NCBI GenBank assembly: GCA_016213065.1
Contig: JACRBV010000025.1
Coordinates: 1 to 32,280, forward strand
Length of the DNA: 32,280 nt
DNA from: Deltaproteobacteria bacterium
GTDB taxonomy: Bacteria > UBA10199 > SPLOWO2-01-44-7
Direction of reading: 5' to 3'
The notes beneath the pieces are model-generated. The model saw only the letters and a program-made list of their open reading frames with translations, was not told the origin of the DNA and ran no database searches. The position numbers and the translations under genes are program-made. This document shows, piece after piece, positions 3,294 through 27,703 of this stretch (its first letter is position 1; every line of letters begins with the position of its first letter).

Positions 3294-3342
3294 GGACTAT
3301 GGACCAAGGACAAGGGACCATGGACTATGGACCAAGGACTTA
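3294..3342 (+). repeat. Family-1 heptamer array, direct units only (7 units)
   Basis: Seven contiguous 7-bp units of form GGACNNN (GGACTAT, GGACCAA, GGACAAG, GGACCAT, GGACTAT, GGACCAA, GGACTTA) end two bases before the coaB ATG. Unlike most arrays in this window there is no inverted arm. The last unit gives AAGGAC about 6 bases before the ATG, which could serve as the ribosome binding site. Confidence 0.9.
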
Positions 3343-4020: not shown

Positions 4021-4106
4021 GCCGAGGTGTTGGAATGGTATACAAGGTGGTCTCAAAAACCACTGGGCTCCGGCCCGTGCGGGTTCAACTCCCGCCCTCG
4101 GCACCA
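4021..4106 (+). tRNA. tRNA-Leu (anticodon CAA)
   Basis: This is a class II tRNA with acceptor stem GCCGAGG/CCTCGGC and encoded ACCA end. The anticodon stem GTGGT/ACCAC closes loop CTCAAAA (anticodon CAA). A long variable arm (GGGCTCCGGCCC) and T arm GCGGG/CCCGC follow. It decodes UUG. hicA starts 18 bp downstream. Confidence 0.95.
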
Positions 4107-4124
4107 ATTAAAAATGGAAGCTTT

Positions 4125-4280
4125 ATGAAAGTTCGTGATATTATCAAACTCGTTGAAAAGAATGGATGGTTTTTAGTCCGAACAAGAGGGAGTCATAGAC
4201 AATATAAACATCCGGAGAAAGACGGACTCGTTACTATTGCGGCTCATTCCATGAGCGATGATTTGGCGCATGGTACTTGA
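4125..4280 (+). CDS. hicA: HicA-family toxin, C-terminus lost by a one-base deletion
   Basis: MKVRDIIKLVEKNGWFLVRT followed by RGSHRQYKHP is a textbook HicA mRNA interferase, a double-stranded-RNA-binding fold with the catalytic His in GSHRQY. The frame ends early at TGA 4278-4280, after DDLAHGT, giving 51 residues. Reading from 4277 in another frame gives LNSVLKQAGLKEVKQK and a TGA at 4325-4327. That is exactly the expected HicA C-terminus, and its stop would overlap the hicB start as ATGA. One missing T near 4277 therefore truncates the toxin. It is either a real inactivation or a sequencing or assembly error. A GGAAG site lies before the ATG. Confidence 0.85.
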   Translation: MKVRDIIKLVEKNGWFLVRTRGSHRQYKHPEKDGLVTIAAHSMSDDLAHGT

Positions 4281-4323
4281 ATAGTGTTTTAAAACAGGCA
4301 GGTCTGAAGGAGGTGAAACAAAA

Positions 4324-4539
4324 ATGAATCGATTTTTAATGATTGTTGAAAAAGCAGGACAAAATTATTCCGCTTATTCTCCCGATATTCCCGGATGTGT
4401 AGCTACGGGGGCAACGAGGGAAGAAGCTGAAAAAAATATGCATGAGGCCATACTGTTACACATTCAGGGTTTGAAAGAGGAGCACCAGCCCATCCCGGAA
4501 TGCAATTCTTTTGCTGAATATATTATCATCGCGGCTTAG
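4324..4539 (+). CDS. hicB: HicB-family antitoxin
   Basis: The 71-residue protein has the HicB partial RNase H-like fold: FLMIVEKAGQNYSAYSPDIP, GCVATGATREEAEKNMHEAI and a hydrophobic end. It should bind and neutralise HicA. No C-terminal DNA-binding helix-turn-helix or ribbon-helix-helix is present, so it is the short HicB form. GGAGGTG lies about 9 bases before its ATG. The start would overlap the restored hicA stop, which supports translational coupling in the ancestral operon. Confidence 0.88.
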   Translation: MNRFLMIVEKAGQNYSAYSPDIPGCVATGATREEAEKNMHEAILLHIQGLKEEHQPIPECNSFAEYIIIAA

Positions 4540-4587
4540 TCTTCAGCAATAAAACGCAAAACGTATACTCGAAACGTTGCCTAGGAA

Positions 4588-4836: not shown

Positions 4837-4908
4837 GGACTATGGACCATGGACCATGCACTTCGTCAATCAATAAATTGAAGGTCCATAGTCTACGGTC
4901 CATGGTCC
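4837..4908. repeat. Family-1 heptamer array, inverted pair
   Basis: Three direct units (GGACTAT, GGACCAT, GGACCAT; 4837-4857) are followed by 25 bp of linker and inverted units (GGTCCATAGTCTACGGTCCA, then TGGTCC; 4883-4908). The arms are complementary over at least 12 bases. The array sits in the divergent region between rpoZ and the histidine kinase. Confidence 0.88.
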
Positions 4909-6889: not shown

Positions 6890-7114
6890 GGGTGCCTCTA
6901 GAACCCCGATTGTCATCCTGAACACATTCGCTTCGCTCAGTGTAAACTCCGTGAAGGATCTACTTGATAACAAATTGGATTCTTCGCAGAGTTTACCCTG
7001 AGCCCGAGCAGATTCTTCGCAGAGTTTACCCTGAGCCCGAGCAGATTCTTCGCTCCGCTCAGAATGACAAAGCGAAGGGCTCAGAATGACAAAGCGAAGG
7101 GCTCAGAATGACAA
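6890..7114. repeat. MITE-like dispersed repeat, copy A (with internal tandem repeats)
   Basis: The stretch begins with a GGGTGCCTCTAGAACCCC-type end, then the dispersed-repeat core TGTCATCCTGAACACATTCG. Within it a 33-bp unit starting GATTCTTCGCAGAGTTTACC occurs twice, and a 22-bp unit starting GGGCTCAGAATGACAAAG occurs nearly three times. Its reverse complement is near-identical to 30978-31180. It fills the gene-less 240 bp between the kinase and gspC. No coding potential is seen. Confidence 0.85.
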
Positions 7115-7124
7115 ATAGAGTTTT

Positions 7125-8072: not shown

Positions 8073-10710
8073 AAAAGGACAATGGACCATGGACCATGGA
8101 CTAGAGACCTTTAGGGGGAGGGGGGTTTTTCTTTTATTGCTGGTCCTTGGTCTATGGTCCTTGGTCTATAGTCCTTCCTTCGCCCAACTTCCTGAAGGGT
8201 CGGCTACTTTGCCGGGTGCGGAGGAGGGAGCTCCACCGGGAGAAATGCCTTCATCACCTGATGTTCCGGAGAGTGCACCCCCGAATGGAGTACCGGAAAA
8301 ACCGGAGGAGGAAGCCGCTGTCAACCCCAGTGATGAAAAAGTTTATCTCAATGTGCAAGATCAAGACATCAAAGAAGTGATTAAACAAATCAGCAAAGCC
8401 ACGGGGCGTAATTTTATTATCGACAGCAAAGTCTCCGGCAAAGTGACCATCCTTTCCAATAAAATGATGACGAAAGAAGAAGCCTATCAGGCTTTTTTGT
8501 CCGCCTTGCAGGTCGCCGGTTTTACAACCGTTTCGGGGCCCGGAGGAATTTTGAAAATTATTCCCCTGAGAGACGCCAAAAATTTTCCGATTCCAACCCA
8601 CATTGACACGACACCTTATACCGACAGCTACATCACCCGTCTTATCAAGATGGAAAATATCAGCGCTAATGACATGGCCGAAGCGATCAAGGGTTTGATT
8701 TCAAAAGACGGAAATTTGTTTGCCTATCCCGAAACAAACACGCTGGTGCTGACGGATTCGGGCACCAATATCGACCGGTTGATGAAGATTATTAAGGAGC
8801 TGGATCAGGAAGGCCCGCAACAGGTTGTCGAAATTATTCCGCTACACTATGCCGGTGCCAAAGAAATGGCCGGTATTATTCTCAATTTATTTGAAGAACA
8901 AAAGAAGCAAGGGGGTGGTGGTGCCAGACCCGGCGGTGGGGGTGGTTCTCTGGAAGAGATTGCACAGGTTTCCAAAATTATTGCCGATGAAAGAACCAAT
9001 TCTCTTATCGTGTTGGCAAGCAAGCGGGCCATTGAGAAAGTCAGAGACATGATCAGCCGCCTTGATTCCAAATTGGAAGAAGGGGCAGAGGGGAAAATTC
9101 ATGTCTATTATTTGAAATATGCAAAAGCCAAAGATTTGGTCACGGTTCTGCAGGGGCTTGCGGGACAAGCGGCCAAGGCGCCGGGGGCCGGTGGAGCGGT
9201 AGCTCAGGGGGCGGTCATTGCTGATTTGGAAGAATTTAAAATCGGTTCCGATGATGCCACCAATTCTCTTCTGATTACTTCGAATCTGAAAACGTTCAAT
9301 ACATTGATCGACAAGGTAATCAGCAAACTCGATATCCCCAGAAAACAGGTTTATCTGGAAGCTATGGTCATTGAATTTTCCTTAACGACCGACAAAAGAG
9401 CGGGAGTTTCTTGGACCGCCGGTGTTGCAGGGGGATCGACCGTCGGATTTGGAGAGGCGTTTAACCAGTTGGCCGGTTTGATTGATCCTTTCAATCCGGC
9501 AAATAAAGCCTCCGCTCTCCTGAATGCCCCCGGTCTTTTAGGCGGGGTTTTGAGCACCAGAACGGTGGCCGTCGAAGTGATCGGTGCCGACGGAGCAAAA
9601 AAGACGGTTAATATGCCAGCCTTCTCCGCTTTTTTAAATGCCCTTTCCGTTTTTGGAAACACCAATGTGATTGCCAGCCCCAATCTGATGGCCTTGGATA
9701 ATGAAGAAGCAACGATCGAGATTATTCGGAAAGAACCGGAACCGGGAAGTAATATTCTTGGACCAAGTGGTCTTGTTTCACAGGGAAGTCCCGTACGTGT
9801 TGACGCGGGTTTAACCTTAAAGCTAACACCGCAAATTACCGAAAAAGGCTCAGTCCGAATGAAAATCGACCAGAAATATTCTTCTTTCACCACGGCCGCA
9901 AATCCCGGTTTGGGAACCCAAGCTATTGTGGAAAGAAAAGTAACCACTTCTGTTATCACGAATGATGCACAGACGGTGGTCATCGGCGGATTGATGGAAG
10001 ATGATGTGACAACAACACGGACCAAGCTTCCGGTTTTGGGTGACATCCCTCTTTTGGGATATTTATTTCAGAAAAAGGAGTCCAACTCACGGAAGAAGAA
10101 TCTTCTTTTGTTTGTAACTCCTTATGTGGTTCGCGATACCGATGACTTCAACCGGGTATTGGCCAAAAAACTGGGGCAACAGGAGGACTTCCTGAATACC
10201 ACTATGAAAAAGAAAGAAAAATCAACCGTGGATAAGTTAATCAAGACACACGATTTTGATCTGCTCGATATTTTGGCGAAGAAACCGGGCCCTGTCACAT
10301 CGGAACGAGCGGTTGTTCTTCCGGGCGGTGTTTATTCCACATCCAATAGCGCGCCGATTATTACGGCAAAACCGGAAGAGGAAAATCATGTAACCATTGT
10401 ATTGCCTCCCCTGCCTCCCCCCGCAGAATCCGTCGATCAGAAACAAAAATCTGTTATTCCAACAACTACAATTCAGACTCAAACTCAAACTCAAACTCAA
10501 ACTCAAACAACAACCCCGCCACCCGTGCAAATTATTCCCCCAAAAAAGAAACCCGCCAATCAGGTAAAAGCGGGGCCCGTCCCAGCAACAACAAAACCAA
10601 AAACCACTACGACAACGACCACCACCACAACAACAACCACCAAAACCCCCATAAAACGTCCCGCAGTAATTACCCTCCCCCCCGGCACCACCCCCGACAT
10701 TGGTGAGTAA
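8059..10710 (+). CDS. gspD: Type II secretion outer-membrane secretin GspD
   Basis: The 883-residue secretin starts with a signal peptide ending YSPSFA^Q. The N0 domain follows (VYLNVQDQDIKEVIKQISKA, about residues 92-165), then N1-N3 modules. The secretin channel domain peaks around residue 640 (IGGLMEDD, LPVLGDIPLLGYLF) and ends near residue 690 (VRDTDDF). It forms the outer-membrane pore. A long Pro/Thr-rich tail of about 190 residues follows, with TQTQTQ and poly-Thr runs, unusual for GspD. The start at ATG 8059 overlaps gspC. ATG 8089 (after AAAAGGAC) is an alternative. The signal peptide core LVLGLWSLVYSP is translated from heptamer repeats. Confidence 0.93.
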   Translation: MKFGRKGQWTMDHGLETFRGRGVFLLLLVLGLWSLVYSPSFAQLPEGSATLPGAEEGAPPGEMPSSPDVPESAPPNGVPEKPEEEAAVNPSDEKVYLNVQDQDIKEVIKQISKATGRNFIIDSKVSGKVTILSNKMMTKEEAYQAFLSALQVAGFTTVSGPGGILKIIPLRDAKNFPIPTHIDTTPYTDSYITRLIKMENISANDMAEAIKGLISKDGNLFAYPETNTLVLTDSGTNIDRLMKIIKELDQEGPQQVVEIIPLHYAGAKEMAGIILNLFEEQKKQGGGGARPGGGGGSLEEIAQVSKIIADERTNSLIVLASKRAIEKVRDMISRLDSKLEEGAEGKIHVYYLKYAKAKDLVTVLQGLAGQAAKAPGAGGAVAQGAVIADLEEFKIGSDDATNSLLITSNLKTFNTLIDKVISKLDIPRKQVYLEAMVIEFSLTTDKRAGVSWTAGVAGGSTVGFGEAFNQLAGLIDPFNPANKASALLNAPGLLGGVLSTRTVAVEVIGADGAKKTVNMPAFSAFLNALSVFGNTNVIASPNLMALDNEEATIEIIRKEPEPGSNILGPSGLVSQGSPVRVDAGLTLKLTPQITEKGSVRMKIDQKYSSFTTAANPGLGTQAIVERKVTTSVITNDAQTVVIGGLMEDDVTTTRTKLPVLGDIPLLGYLFQKKESNSRKKNLLLFVTPYVVRDTDDFNRVLAKKLGQQEDFLNTTMKKKEKSTVDKLIKTHDFDLLDILAKKPGPVTSERAVVLPGGVYSTSNSAPIITAKPEEENHVTIVLPPLPPPAESVDQKQKSVIPTTTIQTQTQTQTQTQTTTPPPVQIIPPKKKPANQVKAGPVPATTKPKTTTTTTTTTTTTTKTPIKRPAVITLPPGTTPDIGE
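8077..8174. repeat. Family-1 heptamer array, inverted pair, inside the gspD signal sequence
   Basis: Direct units GGACAAT, GGACCAT, GGACCAT, GGACTAG (8077-8104) and inverted units beginning GGTCCTTGGTCTATGGTCC (8142-8174) flank a G-rich linker. The whole array lies inside the gspD reading frame and encodes most of the signal peptide. Confidence 0.9.
10477..10506. repeat. Hexamer tandem repeat (ACTCAA)5 in the gspD tail
   Basis: Five exact copies of ACTCAA encode alternating Thr-Gln in the C-terminal extension of GspD. About 100 bp further on, ACN codons encode a poly-Thr run. Hexamer slippage would keep frame and only change tail length. Confidence 0.9.
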
Positions 10711-12547: not shown

Positions 12548-12550
12548 CAA

Positions 12551-12637
12551 AATGCAAAAATCAAAAATAAAAAATCAAAAATGAAAAACACATATTAAAA
12601 ATTTAAAAATTTTTAATTTTTGCTTTTTAATTTTTAC
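12551..12637. repeat. Family-3 AT-rich heptamer array, inverted pair (gspE-gspF junction)
   Basis: Units related to CAAAAAT (CAAAAAT, AAAAAAT, CAAAAAT, GAAAAAC) are followed by a self-complementary AAAATTTAAAAATTTT centre and inverted TTTTTGC/TTTTTAC units. It fills the gspE-gspF spacer and ends a few bases before the gspF ATG. It has the same direct-then-inverted layout as the GC-richer family 1. Confidence 0.75.
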
Positions 12638-12641
12638 TCTT

Positions 12642-13877
12642 ATGCCCGTTTTTGAATACACAGGGATTAATCAACAACGTAAGAAAGCTTCCGGTATCAT
12701 TGAGGCCGAGAGTGACAAAGCGGCCCGGATGAAGCTTAGAAAAATGGGAATTTTTCCGCAGATTTTGACTCTTGAAGGTGGGGCCAAGAAAAAATTCTCT
12801 CTAAATACCAACGTTGATTTCAGTAAATGGGGAAATCGAATCAAAGTTCAGGATATTGCTAGCATGACAAGACAGATGGCAACCCTTGTCAATGCGGGAA
12901 TTCCGCTGGTGGATTCTTTGACAGCTCTTGTCGAGCAGGTTGAAAACCCAAAACTCAGAAAAGTTCTGACTCAGATCAAAGAAAAAGTGACGGAAGGTCA
13001 AAAACTTTCCGACGCGATGCGTGCCCATCCCAAAATTTTTACCGATCTCTATGTTAACATGGTGAACGCCGGTGAAAACAGCGGCGCGCTGGATGTTGTG
13101 TTGATCAGGCTCGCCGATTTTACGGAAGGTCAGGCACGCCTCAAAAGCAAAGTAATCGGAGCGATGATTTATCCCGCCATCATGTCGATTGTCGGTGTTG
13201 CTTTGATGATTATGCTCGTTGTGTTTGTGGTTCCTCAAATCACGCAGATTTTTTTGGATGTCAAAGCAACCCTTCCCCTGCCGACGCGTATTTTGATGTT
13301 TGTCAGCAATGCGCTGACCACGGGCTGGATTGTGTTTTTGCTTTTACTCCTGTTTGGCTTGAGTGGGTTCCTGTTAAAAAAATGGTTCAAGACTCCAAAG
13401 GGACGGGAATTTTTGGATAAATGGATGCTAAAGTTGCCGTTGTTTGGAAAATTAAACCGGATGATTGCTATTTCCCGTTTTGCGAGAACGCTCTCGACTC
13501 TCTTAAATAGCGGCGTTCCTCTTTTAAATGCCCTCGACATTGTGAGTCATATTGTGACGAACACAGTTATACGCCGCGCTATTGAAGAAACAAAGAAAAG
13601 CGTACAAGAAGGAGCTTCCGTTTCAGATCCTTTAAAAAGAAGCGGACAATTTCCTCCGATTGTAACGCACATGATTGCCATCGGAGAAAAAACGGGGGAT
13701 ATGGAAAAAATGTTGGAGCGCGTCGCGGAAGCTTACGACACGCAGGTGGACAACACTGTTTCCACTTTGACAACACTTTTGGAGCCGATCATGATTTTAG
13801 TTATGGCAGGGGTGGTCTCTTTTATAGTAATGTCCATCCTGTTGCCAATTTTACAATTGAACCAACTAGGAGGATAA
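12642..13877 (+). CDS. gspF: Type II secretion inner-membrane platform protein GspF
   Basis: The 411-residue protein starts with the typical MPVFEYTGINQQRKKASGII and contains two T2SSF domains (about residues 75-195 and 280-400). Three hydrophobic membrane segments are seen, near residues 178-200, 220-245 and 380-403. Family motifs include LVNAGIPLVDSL and the repeated LNSGVPLLNALD. GspF anchors GspE and GspL at the membrane. Length and ending (LLPILQLNQLGG) are normal. There is no clear Shine-Dalgarno: the ATG follows an AT-rich repeat, so translation initiation may depend on the unstructured or folded state of that spacer. Confidence 0.94.
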   Translation: MPVFEYTGINQQRKKASGIIEAESDKAARMKLRKMGIFPQILTLEGGAKKKFSLNTNVDFSKWGNRIKVQDIASMTRQMATLVNAGIPLVDSLTALVEQVENPKLRKVLTQIKEKVTEGQKLSDAMRAHPKIFTDLYVNMVNAGENSGALDVVLIRLADFTEGQARLKSKVIGAMIYPAIMSIVGVALMIMLVVFVVPQITQIFLDVKATLPLPTRILMFVSNALTTGWIVFLLLLLFGLSGFLLKKWFKTPKGREFLDKWMLKLPLFGKLNRMIAISRFARTLSTLLNSGVPLLNALDIVSHIVTNTVIRRAIEETKKSVQEGASVSDPLKRSGQFPPIVTHMIAIGEKTGDMEKMLERVAEAYDTQVDNTVSTLTTLLEPIMILVMAGVVSFIVMSILLPILQLNQLGG

Positions 13878-13878
13878 A

Positions 13879-13980
13879 AAGATCAAAAATAAAAAAGCAA
13901 AAAGCAAAAATAAAAAATATAAATAAAAAAATAAGGATTTTTGGTTTTTAATATGTGTTTTTGATTTTTTATTTTTAATT
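13879..13980. repeat. Family-3 AT-rich heptamer array, inverted pair (gspF-gspG junction)
   Basis: Direct units such as TCAAAAA, TAAAAAA, GCAAAAA and GCAAAAA are followed by inverted T-rich units (ATTTTTG, GTTTTTA, GTTTTTG). The layout matches the gspE-gspF and gspM-gspN spacers. Confidence 0.7.
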
Positions 13981-13981
13981 T

Positions 13982-14003: not shown

Positions 14004-14429
14004 ATGAAGAGATTACTTGGAGCCAATAGAGGTATGACACTCATTGAAATCATGGTGGTCATTACCATTTTGGGATTGATCGCCGCCATGGTGACCGTCA
14101 ACGTGATGGGGCGTTTGGAAAAAGCAAAGGCGGATACCGCCAGAACACAGATCAAATCGATCGAACAAGCTATGGAACAATATCGTTTGGACAGTGGCAA
14201 TTATCCTACCACAGAACAGGGACTCAAAGCCCTTGTCGAAGCTCCCGCGGATTCAAAACGTTTTCAACCGGGTGGTTATCTGAAGGGGGGCAAGGTTCCT
14301 CTTGACCCTTGGAGACATGATTTTTCCTACGTCAGCCCGGGCACCCAGGGACATCCGTATGAAATCACCTCAAGCGGTCCCGATGGCCAAGAGGGAACGG
14401 ATGATGACATCAAGAGCTCGGAAGAGTAG
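14004..14429 (+). CDS. gspG: Type II secretion major pseudopilin GspG
   Basis: The 141-residue protein begins with a short prepilin leader MKRLLGANRG, then MTLIEIMVV with Glu at +5, cut by prepilin peptidase after Gly10. The mature part has the N-terminal helix, then the C-terminal GspG signature: NYPTTEQGLKALV, PLDPWRHDFSY, and the calcium-binding SGPDGQEGTDDDI loop. It is the main subunit of the pseudopilus. Unlike GspH-K, its leader is short and free of heptamer repeats. The ATG is set by the G-rich ribosome site. Confidence 0.96.
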   Translation: MKRLLGANRGMTLIEIMVVITILGLIAAMVTVNVMGRLEKAKADTARTQIKSIEQAMEQYRLDSGNYPTTEQGLKALVEAPADSKRFQPGGYLKGGKVPLDPWRHDFSYVSPGTQGHPYEITSSGPDGQEGTDDDIKSSEE

Positions 14430-14430
14430 G

Positions 14431-14539
14431 GGACGGACCATGGACAATGGACTATGGACCAAAAACAAAAAAAAAGAGTGTAGTTAGTCCATGGTCCATA
14501 GTCCATGGTCCACGGTCCATGGACTATGGTCCACGGTCT
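14431..14539. repeat. Family-1 heptamer array, inverted pair, spanning gspH leader
   Basis: Direct units GGACCAT, GGACAAT, GGACTAT, GGACCAA (14435-14462) are followed by an A-rich linker (CCAAAAACAAAAAAAA, then GAGTGTAGTTAG) and inverted units from GTCCATGGTCCATAGTCC (14487-14539). The orientation flips once more near 14517. The linker is nearly identical to that in the gspH-gspI array, so the array and linker appear to be one copied unit. Confidence 0.92.
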
Positions 14540-15136
14540 TCTTCTGGATTTACCCTCATTGAACTGATGGTAACTCTTGTGATCGTGGGGCTTATTATGG
14601 GCCTTGCGATAGGGCAAGTGGGTAAAACACTTGCTTGGGATTTTAAATCAACCACGCGGCGACTGTCTTCCACCATCCGTTATCTTTATAACAAATCTGC
14701 CACCGAAGGGGTGACTCTGCGACTTGTTTTTGATCTCGATGAACCAAGTTTCTGGGTGGAAGGAACTTCTGACAGTTTTACATTAACGAGAGAAGAGGAA
14801 GAGGCATTTCAGAAAAAGAAGACAGAAGACAGAGGACAGAAAACAGAAGAAACAGAGAAAAAAGAAACCACATTTAGCCCTCAGGAATCTTCGTTAACAA
14901 AACCCTACAATCTTCCCAAAGGAGTTTATTTTAAAGATATTTATGCTGAGCACCAAATTGCTCCTGTTGATTCGGGCAAAGCGTATATTTATTTTTTCCC
15001 TCAAGGGTATGTAGAGCGTTCCGTGATTAACTTGCGAGATAAAGATGATGAAGTTCATTATGGATTAAAGGTAAATCCAATTTCGGGGGTAAGCAAAATC
15101 GAGGCAGATTATATTCAGGCGGAGGTGGAAAGATGA
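14447..15136 (+). CDS. gspH: Type II secretion minor pseudopilin GspH
   Basis: The pseudopilin has SSSG^FTLIELMVTLVIVGLI, with Glu at +5 and a hydrophobic helix. From ATG 14447 the leader is 34 residues, translated from heptamer repeats (SPWSIVHGPRSMDYGP). From ATG 14519 it would be 10 residues, closer to a usual leader, but no ribosome site precedes that ATG. The mature part has a GspH-like beta region and an unusual charged linker KKTEDRGQKTEETEKKE made by a second heptamer family (14817-14851). The stop overlaps the gspI start. Length, 229 residues, is somewhat long for GspH. Sequence identity beyond the helix is weak, so H is assigned largely by order. Confidence 0.8.
   Translation: MDYGPKTKKKSVVSPWSIVHGPRSMDYGPRSSSGFTLIELMVTLVIVGLIMGLAIGQVGKTLAWDFKSTTRRLSSTIRYLYNKSATEGVTLRLVFDLDEPSFWVEGTSDSFTLTREEEEAFQKKKTEDRGQKTEETEKKETTFSPQESSLTKPYNLPKGVYFKDIYAEHQIAPVDSGKAYIYFFPQGYVERSVINLRDKDDEVHYGLKVNPISGVSKIEADYIQAEVER
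14817..14851. repeat. Family-2 heptamer array inside gspH (5 units)
   Basis: AGAAGAC, AGAAGAC, AGAGGAC, AGAAAAC, AGAAGAA in tandem, in frame within gspH, encode a Lys/Glu/Thr-rich linker in the mature pseudopilin. The unit type matches the array between gspI and gspJ. There is no inverted arm. Confidence 0.85.
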
Positions 15137-15690
15137 TGGGGAAGGACTATGGACAAGGGACAATGGACAAAGGACCAAAAACAAAAAAAAGAGGTGTAGT
15201 CAGTCCATGGTCCATGGTCCATAGTCCCTTGTCCCCAAAAGGATTTTCCCTTCTTGAAGTCATGGTTGCACTTGCCATTTTGGCTGTAGCGCTTTTGGCT
15301 CTCGTTAATTTTCAGGGGCAATCCATGATAATTTATGGGCGCGCCGAAAAACTAAGTCTTGCCACTTTTTTGGCCAGAGAAAAAATGGCCGATATTTTAT
15401 TGCAACTCGACAAGGAACAATTTCAGCAGGGAAGTTTTCCGGAGGATAAAAGCGAAAACGGTGTTTTTGAAAAACCATATGAAGCATACAAATGGGAATA
15501 TAAAATGCGCAAGGTGGAGATCCCCGCGCCGGAAGGATCCAGTGCCCAGCAAGATCCTATGATAGCTATCGTGCATGTGGTGACGGATCAAATCAAGGAA
15601 ATGGTTCGTGAAGTTAAATTGACCGTTTCATGGGAAGAATTGGGGAAGGAGCAGAGCTTTGATATTGTCACGCATATTTCTAAACTGTAG
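15133..15690 (+). CDS. gspI: Type II secretion minor pseudopilin GspI
   Basis: The 185-residue protein has LSPKG^FSLLEVMVALAILAV with Glu at +5, then a short soluble part with the GspI-like features (LAREKMADILLQL, and EVKLTVSWEE near the end). The leader is 37 residues and is read through heptamer repeats (MDKGPKTKKR, SPWSMVHSPLS). The ATG at 15133 overlaps the gspH stop as ATGA, with GGAGG 8 bases upstream, so this long leader is really the expected translation product. GspI joins GspJ and GspK in the pseudopilus tip. The gspJ start and its ribosome site lie inside its 3' end. Confidence 0.88.
   Translation: MMGKDYGQGTMDKGPKTKKRGVVSPWSMVHSPLSPKGFSLLEVMVALAILAVALLALVNFQGQSMIIYGRAEKLSLATFLAREKMADILLQLDKEQFQQGSFPEDKSENGVFEKPYEAYKWEYKMRKVEIPAPEGSSAQQDPMIAIVHVVTDQIKEMVREVKLTVSWEELGKEQSFDIVTHISKL
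15144..15236. repeat. Family-1 heptamer array, inverted pair, spanning gspI leader
   Basis: Direct units GGACTAT, GGACAAG, GGACAAT, GGACAAA, GGACCAA (15144-15178), an A-rich linker like that in gspH, then inverted units from GTCCATGGTCCATGGTCC (15203-15236). The whole array is within the gspI leader-coding part. Confidence 0.92.
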
Positions 15691-16435
15691 AAGAAAACAG
15701 AAGTCAGATGACGGAAGTCAGAAAAATAGGAGTCAGAAAAATGATTTTCTGTCTTCTGTCTTCTGTCGTCTGTCTTCTGGATTCACACTCATTGAAGTGC
15801 TCGTCTCCGTATCTTTGGTCTCTGTTATTATGCTGATGATCTGGCAGACGACGGCGCAGACCATCAATGCGAGACAGAGAATCGACAAGCGAAACGAGGT
15901 TTATCATAACGCCCGTGTGTCAGCCGAAAAAATGGTGCAGGACATTTCAATGGCTTTTTTGCTGGCCAATACGCCTGCAGAGCAGGGTCAGCGTCAAGGC
16001 TCTCCCCAAATTAAAACAGCCTTCAAGGGAGATTCCGAGACTCTGCAATTCTCGTCTTTGGCGCATTTGCGGCTTTTTAAAAATGCGCGGGAGTCGGATA
16101 GTTGCAATATCGGTTACAAACTGGAGTCCGATCCGGACAATCGCGATTTGCTGATTTTGATGCGCCGCGAATCAAAATGGCTCACCGATAAACCCGATGA
16201 AGGGGGAATATGGATTCCCCTTGCGGAAAAAGTGAAGAAAATAAAATTTGAATATTATGATGGCAGAAAATACGAATGGCAAAGCAGTTGGAACACCGAA
16301 AGTGATACAATGTCCAGACTTCCTCGCGCCGTGAAAGTGACATTCGATTTTGAAAATCCCGACAACAAGGATGAGGATATTTCATTGGCCACGGTGGCTT
16401 GGATTGGAATGTACAGCAATGCGATTGATTTCTAG
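15659..16435 (+). CDS. gspJ: Type II secretion minor pseudopilin GspJ
   Basis: The 258-residue protein has RLSSG^FTLIEVLVSVSLVSV with Glu at +5, and a C-terminal part fitting GspJ (LPRAVKVTFDFENP). No in-frame ATG precedes the cleavage site. A TTG at 15659, 7 bases after a near-consensus AAGGAG (15646-15651) inside gspI, is the best start and gives a 41-residue leader. That leader is translated from family-2 heptamers (KSDDGSQKNRSQKND, FLSSVFCRLSS). It overlaps gspI by 32 bases, so coupling is likely. GspJ is a pseudopilus tip subunit. Confidence 0.87.
   Translation: MILSRIFLNCRRKQKSDDGSQKNRSQKNDFLSSVFCRLSSGFTLIEVLVSVSLVSVIMLMIWQTTAQTINARQRIDKRNEVYHNARVSAEKMVQDISMAFLLANTPAEQGQRQGSPQIKTAFKGDSETLQFSSLAHLRLFKNARESDSCNIGYKLESDPDNRDLLILMRRESKWLTDKPDEGGIWIPLAEKVKKIKFEYYDGRKYEWQSSWNTESDTMSRLPRAVKVTFDFENPDNKDEDISLATVAWIGMYSNAIDF
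15692..15779. repeat. Family-2 heptamer array, inverted pair, in the gspJ leader
   Basis: Direct units AGAAAAC, AGAAGTC, AGATGAC, GGAAGTC (from 15692) are followed by a perfect small hairpin CAGAAAA-ATGA-TTTTCTG (15734-15751) and inverted units TCTGTCT, TCTGTCT, TCTGTCG, TCTGTCT. The layout is the same as family 1 with a different unit sequence. Confidence 0.88.
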
Positions 16436-16439
16436 AAAA

Positions 16440-16547
16440 GGACCATAGACTATGGACAATGGACAAAAGACTAAAAAATGGTCCATGGTCCATGGTCCAT
16501 GGTCCATAGTCCACAGTCCATGGTCTATAGTCCATGGTCCACAGTCC
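16440..16547. repeat. Family-1 heptamer array, inverted pair, spanning gspK leader
   Basis: Direct units (GGACCATAGACTATGGACAA, then TGGACAA; 16440-16472) are followed by a short A-rich linker and the longest inverted arm in the window (16480-16547, about ten units of GTCCATG/GTCCATA type). It covers the gspJ-gspK junction and the gspK leader. Confidence 0.92.
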
Positions 16548-17855
16548 AAAAGAGGCATTGCCCTGCTTTTGGTGTTGGGTGCTATTGTCATGCTCACCAT
16601 GCTGGCAGTTGCGTTTGCCTATGATTCCCAGATTGAATACCATCAGTCGATTCGCCAAAAAGAACGCTTGCAGGCTTATTATCTGGCCAGCTCCGCCTAC
16701 AATTTGGTTCGTCTTGAATTGAAAATCGGGAATTCCATTCAATCGCAAATTAATGCCAGCGCCGCTTCTGCCGGCATGCAACTGCCCATGGATCTTTCAA
16801 ATCCCCTTTGCAAACAGTTTCCGATGAAAACGGCCCTCTTCAGACTCTTTTTGTCCGGTGAGAGTCCCGAAGAACCGAAAAAGGAAGGCGAAGAAGGAGA
16901 AGAAAAAACCCCCAAAGAAAAAGAGGAAGCATCCCAAATGATGGCCGGATTTGCGCTTGCCGGTGTGGAAGAATTTTTGAAATTTGAGGGAGATTTTGAC
17001 GGAGAATGCACCGATGAAAATTCCAAGATTGATTTAAATTATATTTATTCGCAAGATCCCCTCAAAAAAGAATTGCAGGGTGAAAATGGTTATGATGCCT
17101 ACAAACATTTTTTGATGAGTGTGCTTTCACAAAGTGCTGATCTTTTTAAAAATGAGGATTTGAAAATTGTTGATGTGGTGAGAAATATCGCCGATTGGGT
17201 TGATTCCAATGAAGTGGTCAATGATTTTGGCGGGTCTGAAGCGGGTAGTGAAGATTCGATTTATCGCAACCGTCTTCCGGGCCAGATGGCGACTAAAAAT
17301 GGGAAATTTTCCCTTCCGGCCGATATTTTTTTGGTGGAAGGAGTGCGTGATAGCTGGTGGGGTGCTGTGTCCGATCTTTTTACAATTTATGGGGCGACAA
17401 GTTCTGCCGGAAAACCACAAATAAATGCTTGCCGCGCCCCAAACGAGGTCGTCAAGTCTTTGATCTTAAGATATACTGAGACCCGCACGGATTTGCCGCC
17501 GATTAAACCGACGGACGAAGAAATTTTGGATCAGCTTGTTCAGGCTGTTAAAGAAGGATGTACGGGGGCTGTGCCGGATAAAAACAAAATCGCCCAGTCT
17601 TTGGACGCAAAATTGTTGGAGGTCCTGAAAGCGGCGCCGGCCCCGCAGACGCCGTCTCCTGCGGGGACGGGGGGATATGCACCGCAACCTTTGGTTTTTG
17701 CCGACTGGATTGCAACACAGAGCCGTTTTTTTAGTTTGAAATTGACAGGACAAGTGAACGATACCGTGATAAAAATCAATACGGTGATTGATCTGGGACA
17801 AGGCGGGGGATCCGATACAACAAAGTGGAAAACGCTTTATTGGAAAGTGGAGTAA
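16452..17855 (+). CDS. gspK: Type II secretion minor pseudopilin GspK
   Basis: The 467-residue protein has SKRG^IALLLVLGAIVMLTM. The +5 residue is Leu rather than Glu, the known GspK peculiarity that places it at the pseudopilus tip. A large soluble domain follows, with the GspK features KIDLNY and IADWVDSN. An acidic/Lys insert lies near residue 140, and a Pro-rich stretch near 395-410. The 35-residue leader ([20 protein letters not shown]) is translated from heptamers. AAAAGGA lies about 10 bases before ATG 16452. Length is above the usual 300-350 residues. Confidence 0.9.
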   Translation: MDNGQKTKKWSMVHGPWSIVHSPWSIVHGPQSKRGIALLLVLGAIVMLTMLAVAFAYDSQIEYHQSIRQKERLQAYYLASSAYNLVRLELKIGNSIQSQINASAASAGMQLPMDLSNPLCKQFPMKTALFRLFLSGESPEEPKKEGEEGEEKTPKEKEEASQMMAGFALAGVEEFLKFEGDFDGECTDENSKIDLNYIYSQDPLKKELQGENGYDAYKHFLMSVLSQSADLFKNEDLKIVDVVRNIADWVDSNEVVNDFGGSEAGSEDSIYRNRLPGQMATKNGKFSLPADIFLVEGVRDSWWGAVSDLFTIYGATSSAGKPQINACRAPNEVVKSLILRYTETRTDLPPIKPTDEEILDQLVQAVKEGCTGAVPDKNKIAQSLDAKLLEVLKAAPAPQTPSPAGTGGYAPQPLVFADWIATQSRFFSLKLTGQVNDTVIKINTVIDLGQGGGSDTTKWKTLYWKVE

Positions 17856-17860
17856 TGAAA

Positions 17861-17944
17861 GGACTATGGACCATGGACAATAGACTACAGACCGGAAACA
17901 AAAAGCAGTTGGTCCATAGACCATGGTCCATAGTCCATGGTCTG
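17861..17944. repeat. Family-1 heptamer array, inverted pair (gspK-gspL junction)
   Basis: Direct units from GGACTATGGACCATGGACAA (17861-17893) and inverted units from GGTCCATAGACCATGGTCCA (17911-17944) flank an A-rich linker. Here the array is intergenic and ends 11 bp before the gspL ATG. Confidence 0.92.
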
Positions 17945-20165: not shown

Positions 20166-20172
20166 GGGAAGA

Positions 20173-20270
20173 TGCAAAAACCAAAATGCAAAAATCAAAA
20201 ATCAAGATTGCAATGCAAAATTTAAAATTTTGATTTGCAATTTTTGATTTTTAAATTTTGATTTTTTAAT
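20173..20270. repeat. Family-3 AT-rich heptamer array, inverted pair (gspM-gspN junction)
   Basis: Direct CAAAAAT/CAAAATG-type units are followed by a TTTAAAATTTTGATTTG centre and inverted ATTTTTG/ATTTTGA units, filling the gspM-gspN spacer up to the gspN ATG. Same layout as the other two AT-rich spacers. Confidence 0.75.
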
Positions 20271-20271
20271 T

Positions 20272-22072: not shown

Positions 22073-22738
22073 ATGTCTCAGAATCTTCAAGGTCTTTATA
22101 CCATCGCCGATAATCAATTTCGGCCGGACAAATCTCATGTGCAATTGGCGGAAGCCTTTTTGCGAGGCGGCGCCAAAATTGTTCAATTGAGAATGAAGAA
22201 GGACCATGGACTATGGACCATGGACTGTGGACCAGAAACAATTGCTAGGAATATAATGATGCTGAAAAAAAAATATGATTTTACATTTATCGTGAATGAT
22301 TTTGTTGACGTGGCTCTGGAGGTTGGGGCCGACGGGATTCATGTGGGAGCGAATGATATGCCTGTTCAAGAGGTGCGTCGAAAAGTGGGCTCCAAAATGT
22401 TGATCGGATATTCTTCGCATTCTTTGGCAGAGGCTTTGGTCGCTGAAAAAGCGGGCGCCGATTACGTTGCCTTTGGCGCCATTTTCCCAACCAAAACAAA
22501 AGGTCCCGGGCACCCCGTGCAAAGTCTCGAAAAATTGCGAAAAGTGGTCGAAACTTTGAAAGTGCCCGTCGTGGCCATCGGCGGAATCGGCCGCAAAAAT
22601 TTCAATCAAGTTCTGGAAACAGGCGTTGCTTCTGTCGCAATGATCACCGCACTTACAGGAGCCCCAGACATCGCTGAAGTAACCCGATATTTTGCAAAAA
22701 GGACCATCATAGACTATGGACCAAGGACTATGGACTAA
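22073..22738 (+). CDS. thiE: Thiamine-phosphate synthase (thiamine monophosphate synthase)
   Basis: The 221-residue TIM barrel joins HMP-PP and HET-P. Motifs are LYTIADNQF, KIVQLRMK, FIVNDFVDVALEVGADGIHV, GYSSHSLAEA, VAFGAIFPTKTKG and VPVVAIGGIG. Between residues 43 and 55 the protein contains DHGLWTMDCGPE, translated from heptamer repeats. It falls in the loop after QLR, where HMP-PP phosphates bind in the family, so it may alter or abolish activity. The last residues (IDYGPRTMD) are repeat-derived too. The ATG at 22073 is preferred; the frame from 22037 adds 12 residues. No TPP riboswitch is seen upstream. thiD follows. Confidence 0.9.
   Translation: MSQNLQGLYTIADNQFRPDKSHVQLAEAFLRGGAKIVQLRMKKDHGLWTMDCGPETIARNIMMLKKKYDFTFIVNDFVDVALEVGADGIHVGANDMPVQEVRRKVGSKMLIGYSSHSLAEALVAEKAGADYVAFGAIFPTKTKGPGHPVQSLEKLRKVVETLKVPVVAIGGIGRKNFNQVLETGVASVAMITALTGAPDIAEVTRYFAKRTIIDYGPRTMD
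22201..22234. repeat. Family-1 heptamers inside thiE (direct units only)
   Basis: GGACCAT, GGACTAT, GGACCAT, GGACTGT and a partial GGACCA follow one another in the thiE frame. They encode an in-frame peptide within the protein. There is no inverted arm next to it. Confidence 0.92.
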
Positions 22739-22786
22739 ACGCCTTTTTATTTTTGGTCCATAGTCCTTGGTCTATTGTCCGTGGTC
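22701..22786. repeat. Family-1 heptamer array, inverted pair (thiE-thiD junction)
   Basis: Direct units from GGACCATCATAGACTATGGA (22701-22737) encode the last residues of ThiE. Inverted units from GGTCCATAGTCCTTGGTC (22755-22786) lie in the spacer, 6 bp before thiD. A T-rich linker separates them. Confidence 0.9.
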
Positions 22787-22792
22787 TTTTTT

Positions 22793-27616: not shown

Positions 27617-27703
27617 CTATGGACCATAGACCATAGACTAAAAACTTAATTAGGAAAGAAACTGGTCCATAGTCCATAGTCCATGGTCCATAGTCCATAG
27701 TCC
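27615..27703. repeat. Family-1 heptamer array, inverted pair (between two surface-protein genes)
   Basis: Direct units from GACTATGGACCATAGACCAT (27615-27640) begin at the lipoprotein stop codon. After a 23-bp linker, inverted units from GGTCCATAGTCCATAGTCCA (27664-27703) run up to the AAGGAGG ribosome site of the next gene. Confidence 0.92.

Follow-up and report, generated by a model that had tools for sequence, protein, structure and literature searches.

Why should the cleaved leaders of several pseudopilins be encoded by hairpin arrays of a seven-nucleotide repeat? The question is raised by the type II secretion operon on contig JACRBV010000025.1 of a Deltaproteobacteria bacterium (assembly GCA_016213065.1), of which the whole stretch of 32,280 nucleotides, here called the window, was analysed; it is contig C25 of a 155-contig, 1.8-Mb genome (G000). 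The operon contains a gspC-like gene, gspD, gspE, gspF, gspG, gspH, gspI, gspJ and gspK, followed by a pilM/gspL-like gene, and the host genes gspG to gspK are recognised by a prepilin motif of the G/FxxxE type and by GspG-K family matches in operon order. Near the beginning of gspH, gspI and gspK, repeated GGACNAT units are followed by an A-rich linker and repeated ATNGTCC units, all ahead of the prepilin cleavage site. The orthologous sites are empty in relatives, and the same permissive sites are differently filled across genera. Judged from the sequence comparisons, the arrays are probably copies of a small, non-autonomous, dispersed hairpin repeat that selection has filtered into gaps, leaders and flexible loops.

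Architecture of the element and its start codons

The consensus of the element is (GGACNAT)n, an A-rich linker of the form GGACY-AAAAAC...AGTT-RGTCC, and (ATNGTCC)n, which together make a single long hairpin. The elements all fold much more stably than their shuffled versions: the gspH hairpin has a folding energy of -55.9 kcal/mol (z -7.2 against shuffles), and the z-scores for gspK and gspJ are -8.5 and -9.1. The size of the element is variable, from about 20 to 115 nt, since the number of heptamers differs and one or two arms may be present. The direct-linker-inverted layout that a preliminary description of this DNA had reported for gspH, gspI and gspK is borne out by the sequence, and so is its observation that the start of gspJ has the identical layout with another heptamer (GAAGTCA/TTCTGTC). 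It had also taken the near identity of the gspH and gspI linkers as a sign of copying; this agrees with our finding that the AAAAAC...AGTT linker type occurs repeatedly in the whole genome, mostly in sense orientation relative to transcription, also in intergenic copies. The claim that heptamer arrays encode pseudopilin leaders between 14431 and 17944 stands for the four gene starts; the array at 17861-17943 is intergenic. The scope was also too narrow, since a Sec signal peptide of gspD and a tract in mature GspH are built from heptamers as well. The copies in the window are the following.

3294 to 3335, forward strand: array with a direct arm only, just upstream of the start ATG of the next gene
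4837 to 4908, forward strand: intergenic direct-inverted element
8077 to 8176, forward strand: gspD element with direct arm (ATG 8089), G/T-rich linker and inverted arm
14435 to 14461, forward strand: gspH element, direct GGACNAT arm with ATGs in three frames (14440, 14447, 14454)
14462 to 14486, forward strand: gspH element, A-rich linker AAAAACAAAAAAAAAGAGTGTAGTT
14487 to 14538, reverse strand: gspH element, inverted GTCCATG arm, in which one flipped unit provides the in-frame ATG 14519
14447 to 14548, forward strand: GspH leader MDYGPKTKKKSVVSPWSIVHGPRSMDYGPRSSSG, 34 residues from ATG 14447 and 10 residues from ATG 14519
14810 to 14868, forward strand: AGAAGAC-type heptamer tract in mature GspH, in a variable linker
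15133 to 15243, forward strand: GspI leader, 37 residues, with the start ATG 15133/15136 outside the array
15142 to 15177, forward strand: gspI element, direct arm
15203 to 15234, reverse strand: gspI element, inverted arm
15692 to 15781, forward strand: gspJ element, hairpin layout with the GAAGTCA... / TTCTGTC heptamer
16440 to 16548, forward strand: gspK element, direct arm at 16440-16471 and inverted arm at 16478-16548
16452 to 16556, forward strand: GspK leader, 35 residues
17861 to 17943, forward strand: intergenic element between gspK and the pilM/gspL-like gene (start 17956), no leader
22201 to 22235, forward strand: in-frame internal array in thiamine monophosphate synthase (TMP-TENI)
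22711 to 22787, forward strand: element at the junction of two genes
27621 to 27703, forward strand: intergenic direct-inverted element

Translation of the gspD element gives the Sec signal peptide MDHGLETFRGRGVFLLLLVLGLWSLVYSPSFA, with QLP following the cleavage site, and the gspJ element encodes a leader that ends in FLSSVFCRLSSG before FTLIE. Hairpins of the same layout with a different, AT-rich unit (AAAATCA/AATTTTT type) were seen at 12549-12636, 13874-13981 and 20172-20271 of the window, where they occupy the gspE-gspF gap, the gspF-gspG gap and a downstream site.

The heptamer has coding properties of its own. In the GGAC orientation an array is free of stop codons in all frames, and all reading frames are equivalent because 7 is coprime to 3; the opposite orientation reads TAG where the unit is GGACTAT. 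Each unit of the direct arm has an ATG whose frame is shifted by one relative to the preceding unit, giving starts in all three frames, and these ATGs are preceded about 9 nt upstream by a Shine-Dalgarno-like GGA. The inverted arm translates to a PWSIVHGP-like peptide, which behind a hydrophobic stretch is a plausible signal-peptide end (...VLGPWSIVHGPAFA, with cleavage thereafter).

Counted from Met to Gly, the leaders comprise 34 residues in GspH, 37 in GspI and 35 in GspK, against 10 in GspG. The lengths given earlier are thus reproduced, but not all of the starts are certain. In gspI the start is clear, and this gene alone has one outside the array that is preceded by a good Shine-Dalgarno sequence: ATG 15133/15136 lies behind GGAGGT and overlaps the gspH stop, so that the array falls between start and Gly. 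A GTG occupies the equivalent position in the related genome G005, and gspI also has a second in-frame ATG at 15214. In the five relatives compared (G001-G005, all of the same family) the gspH start is located within the end of gspG. G000 retains this ancestral ATG at 14401, but it is out of frame and reaches a stop in the linker, and therefore the array ATG 14447 or 14519 must serve. A natural in-frame ATG lies within the direct arm of gspK and of gspD. The gspJ gene is without an in-frame ATG, and its candidate starts are TTG 15659, with AAGGAG upstream, or TTG 15665.

Distribution in the genome and its relatives

Searching the genome for the array core, as had been proposed beforehand, yielded 431 matches to GGACNATGGACNATGGAC with at most one mismatch in 1.8 Mb and none to the reversed control. 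Elements were surveyed in 0.867 of the 1.8 Mb (contigs C1-C83, C92 and C93, first 20 kb each, and the window), where period 7 dominates the tandem repeats with 198 tracts compared to 14 in shuffled sequence. This sample holds 66 elements, again with no match to the reversed control: 26 are direct-inverted, 18 direct only, 16 inverted only and 6 of other layout, and the direct-then-inverted polarity prevails by 26:3. An origin by chance or as an assembly artefact was rejected, given the zero control matches and the filling of the same sites in an independently binned genome.

By script, 21 of the 66 elements are intergenic, 20 internal to genes, 22 N-terminal and 3 C-terminal; on inspection three of the N-terminal ones (in a ThiE-like protein, an RNA methyltransferase and exonuclease VII) were moved to the internal class, which then numbers 23. 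Twelve elements are in frame within cleavable leaders. These belong to GspD, GspH, GspI, GspK and eight other proteins: a CtpA-type S41 protease (MDKKKKSENLKSVLYFLVLVLGLWSIVHSPAFA up to the cleavage site), LolA, a TolA-binding/TPR protein, a PilQ-like secretin, a DUF3047 protein, a TPR protein, a subtilase and an LppC/Peripla_BP lipoprotein with the lipobox LTAC. The CtpA element had been classed as intergenic by the script and was reassigned to a leader on inspection. Since no other signal peptide is apparent in GspD or CtpA, their array leaders are probably functional. In a thirteenth case the array forms the N-terminal membrane anchor of RNase Y.

The density of elements was compared between leaders, defined by a crude rule as 121 of 620 genes with an N-terminal hydrophobic leader, and other sequence. 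Leaders hold 1.10 elements per kb, other non-core sequence 0.146 and core coding sequence 0.036 (p=7e-7 for leaders versus other non-core and 3e-13 versus core coding). Without the gsp operon the values are p=4e-4 and 3e-8, and 0.003 with longer leaders. This test led us to abandon the view that leaders are in no way special; an earlier view, that arrays occur in leaders alone, had been given up once internal inserts were found. The suggestion that the repeat survives where its peptide is later removed thus holds as a strong tendency, leaders being the densest location, but not as an exclusive rule: about one third of the elements lie in mature protein, mostly of soluble enzymes, and about another third are intergenic.

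Internal arrays are in frame in Tgt, PurH, MetRS (two), CarB (two), GltX, DnaG, PrmC, thiamine monophosphate synthase, MeaB and others, and the E2 subunit of pyruvate dehydrogenase contains two whole hairpins in frame. GGAC is in the sense strand in 18 of 20 internal arrays. Solved structures were aligned for Tgt, PurH, MetRS, CarB and E2, and relative to a solved structure the Tgt array is a clean 10-residue insert. The Tgt loop is different in almost every copy. At the GltX site G000 has GGACCAT, G003 CCTCGAA and G005 GGAC units; the PurH site carries GACCGAA in G005, and at the CarB site the G005 array is oppositely oriented.

The relatives show the gsp sites with and without arrays. Orthologous starts were compared, as the preliminary description had proposed. 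Relatives without arrays carry these genes with short leaders at the sites examined, and hence the arrays were inserted in the leader-coding stretch. The gspI leader of G002 and G003 is the array-free MKKG of 4 residues. The gspH leader measures 11-13 residues across G001-G004, namely MTSRAVNSRRG in G002, MMMLRAGKNNRG or shorter in G003 and 11 residues in G004, while that of G001 is array-free (MTLRVGKSRNSG), yet G001 has short GTCCACG arms at gspI and gspK. At the gsp sites that were readable, G002, G003 and G004 lack the arrays, and other inserts occupy leaders of this set. Terminal inverted repeats (TTTTCGAATGGCAAAAAA) bound an insert of 194 nt in the gspI leader of the array-poor G004 (L282/L283). 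In G003 a common insert from another repeat family (GGGGCCTGTCCCTCCGTGTTTTGTGGGGGCCCC...) is located in the gspD and PilQ leaders (L200; G003:C8 near 178 kb), and there is a 385-nt gap at gspK, where G002 has a GTCCGAC array. The linker of mature GspH contains the AGAAGAC tract in G000 and GGAC-type peptides in G001 and G005.

G005 has arrays at all four starts from gspH to gspK and a further one behind gspK; the spelling of the units and the linker are particular to this genome. We counted 49 elements in it, including five prepilin leaders and about eleven signal peptides of the Sec or lipoprotein kind, which typically read ...VLGPWSIVHGPAFA up to the cleavage site; as its contigs were picked for array content, the pattern is informative and not the rates. 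In the tree G004 and G005 are sisters (support 100), and G000 stands elsewhere in the family, with weak deeper branches (42-47). Because the core array has two matches in the genome of G004 and 302 in that of its sister G005, independent expansion into the same sites in G000 and G005 is the simplest reading, but arrays may instead have been repeatedly lost in the relatives. A TTCTGTT-type heptamer run was seen beside a VTPAKAGVQ-type repeat in the PilQ leader region of G005 (L329, 17.9-18.2 kb), and it seemingly codes for the hydrophobic core of the signal peptide.

Outside the family, Omnitrophota contigs (L075, L088) encode similar array-type signal peptides, and GGACYAT arrays also occur in Bacteroidota, Cyanobacteria, Lentisphaeria, Omnitrophota, Gemmatimonadota and others. 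Within the class (G001, G026, G028, G029, G031, G037, G040 and G041) most array-bearing genomes have a unit of their own in which only GAC is kept, under a search pattern that fixed GAC every 7 nt and to which units lacking GAC are invisible. Examples are TGACTCG in G031, AGACCTT in G040, CGACGAA in G026, GGACCGT and GGACCAC in G001, and also GGACTTA.

Copying, selection and competing explanations

That unit and linker are common to many loci argues for copying between loci, and the positions of the elements, in gaps, removable leaders and flexible loops, argue for a selective filter. We therefore favour a process that would copy the repeat to many loci, with copies persisting where an extra peptide is harmless. 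In a leader the array peptide would be removed by signal peptidase or prepilin peptidase, and an array at a gene start could supply initiation in any needed frame through its GGA-ATG ladder, as in gspH with its out-of-frame ancestral ATG. Three properties would make the element tolerable to genes: the stop-free frames, the ATG in every unit and the signal-peptide-like peptide of the inverted arm. Several observations weigh against such copying and filtering. No copying enzyme was found among the candidates examined (Y1_Tnp, RVT_1). RAYT/Y1_Tnp was rejected as the copier, since the array-free G004 has five matches versus two in G000 (C60:7776 and C56:3799) and the counts do not track array load; C60 has no called array and the nearest array on C56 is about 5 kb away. 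Reverse transcriptase was rejected likewise, RVT_1 being absent from G000 and not tracking array load. No target-site duplication was obvious at gspI and at gspK-pilM in comparison with the highly diverged empty relatives. At some internal sites an array-free relative has a loop of equal length and other sequence, so some arrays may have overwritten an existing loop instead of inserting. Finally, gene and leader calls were crude, made with our own caller of open reading frames and a hydrophobicity rule, and the array peptide itself feeds into some of the leader calls.

A local origin of each array, by slippage or hairpin-mediated template switching from GGAC/GTCC seeds and with no dispersal, seems doubtful. 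Several other heptamers (AAAAATC, AGAAGAC, GGTTGAC and more) adopt the same hairpin layout within one genome, and the units differ between related genomes, which is what a general process of period 7 would produce. However, local slippage predicts neither a unit nor a linker common to the whole genome, and a single family of units that is found with a repeated linker at tens of places in one genome requires copying between them. The preliminary description had alternatively thought of a repeat that targets leader positions, which would take a dedicated mobility system recognising leader-coding or translation-start DNA and a repeat specialised for cleavage. The element is densest in leaders, and G000 and G005 both have arrays at all four of gspH to gspK, though they are not sisters. 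Insertion preference is nevertheless inseparable from selection in the present data, the internal and intergenic copies speak against targeting, and so do the unrelated inserts in the gspI leader of G004 and the gspD and PilQ leaders of G003. Because such inserts share the same leaders within the family, permissive sites and selection are indicated rather than leader recognition, and we consider targeting quite unlikely.

It is very unlikely that the hairpins are in the first place functional RNA or DNA, retained in operons for a role in mRNA stability, in termination or in the control of translation, with an incidental coding overlap. They are very stable, and their linker is mostly sense to transcription even in intergenic copies, but many copies lie within the coding sequence of unrelated enzymes, some are single-armed so that a hairpin is impossible, relatives are without copies at orthologous sites, and three tRNAs are the sole Rfam matches in the window. 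A telomerase-like writer dedicated to adding genome-specific NGACNNN heptamers to DNA ends or gaps, such that the extended ends meet as GGAC...GTCC, appears highly improbable. It could account for the 26:3 polarity, for the genome-specific units of the class in which GAC alone is conserved and for GGACYAT arrays in unrelated phyla; yet this polarity is expected of any inverted-repeat element, G000 has no reverse transcriptase, and the common linker fits copying of whole elements better. We also think it unlikely that, throughout the class and patchily in other phyla, an activity writing NGACNNN hairpin arrays has been co-opted to provide portable start-codon-plus-leader cassettes that export a sizeable share of the secretome.

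Relation to known repeats and neighbouring observations

A literature search for the GGACNAT-type heptamer returned unrelated primers and sequences only. Several known systems share features with the element. Rickettsia palindromic elements (RPEs) are families of hairpins of about 150 bp, and every family has a conserved peptide (Ogata et al. 2000, 2002, as summarised in PMC10969869). In this account they resemble the G000 element as small, translated hairpin repeats that are in frame in many unrelated genes, metabolic ones included, and the G000 element shows these RPE traits as a palindromic, multi-copy hairpin with in-frame copies in unrelated genes. Compared by description, it differs in having heptamer arms of variable length, often a single arm, with no consensus of about 150 bp, and in its strong excess within cleaved leaders. 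By this analogy, the element probably behaves as RPEs do, with a different construction.

The TAACTGA direct repeats that occur in Beggiatoaceae, Cyanobacteria and Bacteroidetes (MacGregor 2015, PMC4679880) are likewise heptamer arrays that number hundreds per genome, are often located at gene starts, are patchy across phyla and vary in length by 7 nt. They have another unit, one inverted repeat in 170 sets, and encode no leader peptides. In contrast to direct-only, essentially intergenic heptamer arrays, G000 has the hairpin layout, with about half of the elements in frame in genes. Cyanobacteria also contain short tandemly repeated repetitive (STRR) sequences, tandem heptanucleotide repeats that are dispersed in the genome. 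They are similar as dispersed tandem heptamers, and GGACYAT arrays were observed in Anabaena/Nostoc contigs, but 15 of 16 sampled cyanobacterial copies lie outside long open reading frames. REP/REPIN sequences are also short, palindromic, dispersed repeats, and Y1_Tnp genes are present in several of the genomes compared; however, they have a fixed palindrome of 20-40 bp instead of heptamer arrays, and the two Y1_Tnp genes of G000 have no adjoining array in the sampled contigs. Terminal inverted repeats, a trait of miniature inverted-repeat transposable elements (MITEs), are present in 26 of the 66 G000 elements, the remainder being mostly single arms. Enterobacterial RU/ERIC elements can contain open reading frames, as in the pestis gene YPO1552 (Delihas 2007, PMC2759123). 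This is an isolated case of a 168-bp MITE-like unit, compared to roughly twelve leaders within the sampled half of the G000 genome, and again in a second genus.

If the arrays are indeed selection-filtered copies of a dispersed repeat, cleaved leaders would offer small selfish repeats a refuge. Simple heptamers would then be co-optable as working leaders of the Sec, lipoprotein and prepilin types in two or more genera of a single family, and comparable cases extend to the Omnitrophota contigs. They would also offer a quantifiable natural experiment on how loosely leader sequences are constrained and show which loops of essential enzymes tolerate an inserted peptide. The testable question that follows is what copies 7-nt units and why genome-specific units keep the GAC core.

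Three further observations were made in passing. On a contig of Mucilaginibacter straminoryzae (L097), which belongs to another phylum, a GGACYAT-type array is in frame in an apparent TruA pseudouridine synthase. At 4100-4540 of the window two small neighbouring open reading frames resemble by eye a HicA/HicB pair, and tandem repeats of a 33-mer and a 22-mer (GCTCAGAATGACAAAGCGAAGG) lie at 6978-7115, directly upstream of the gspC-like gene.

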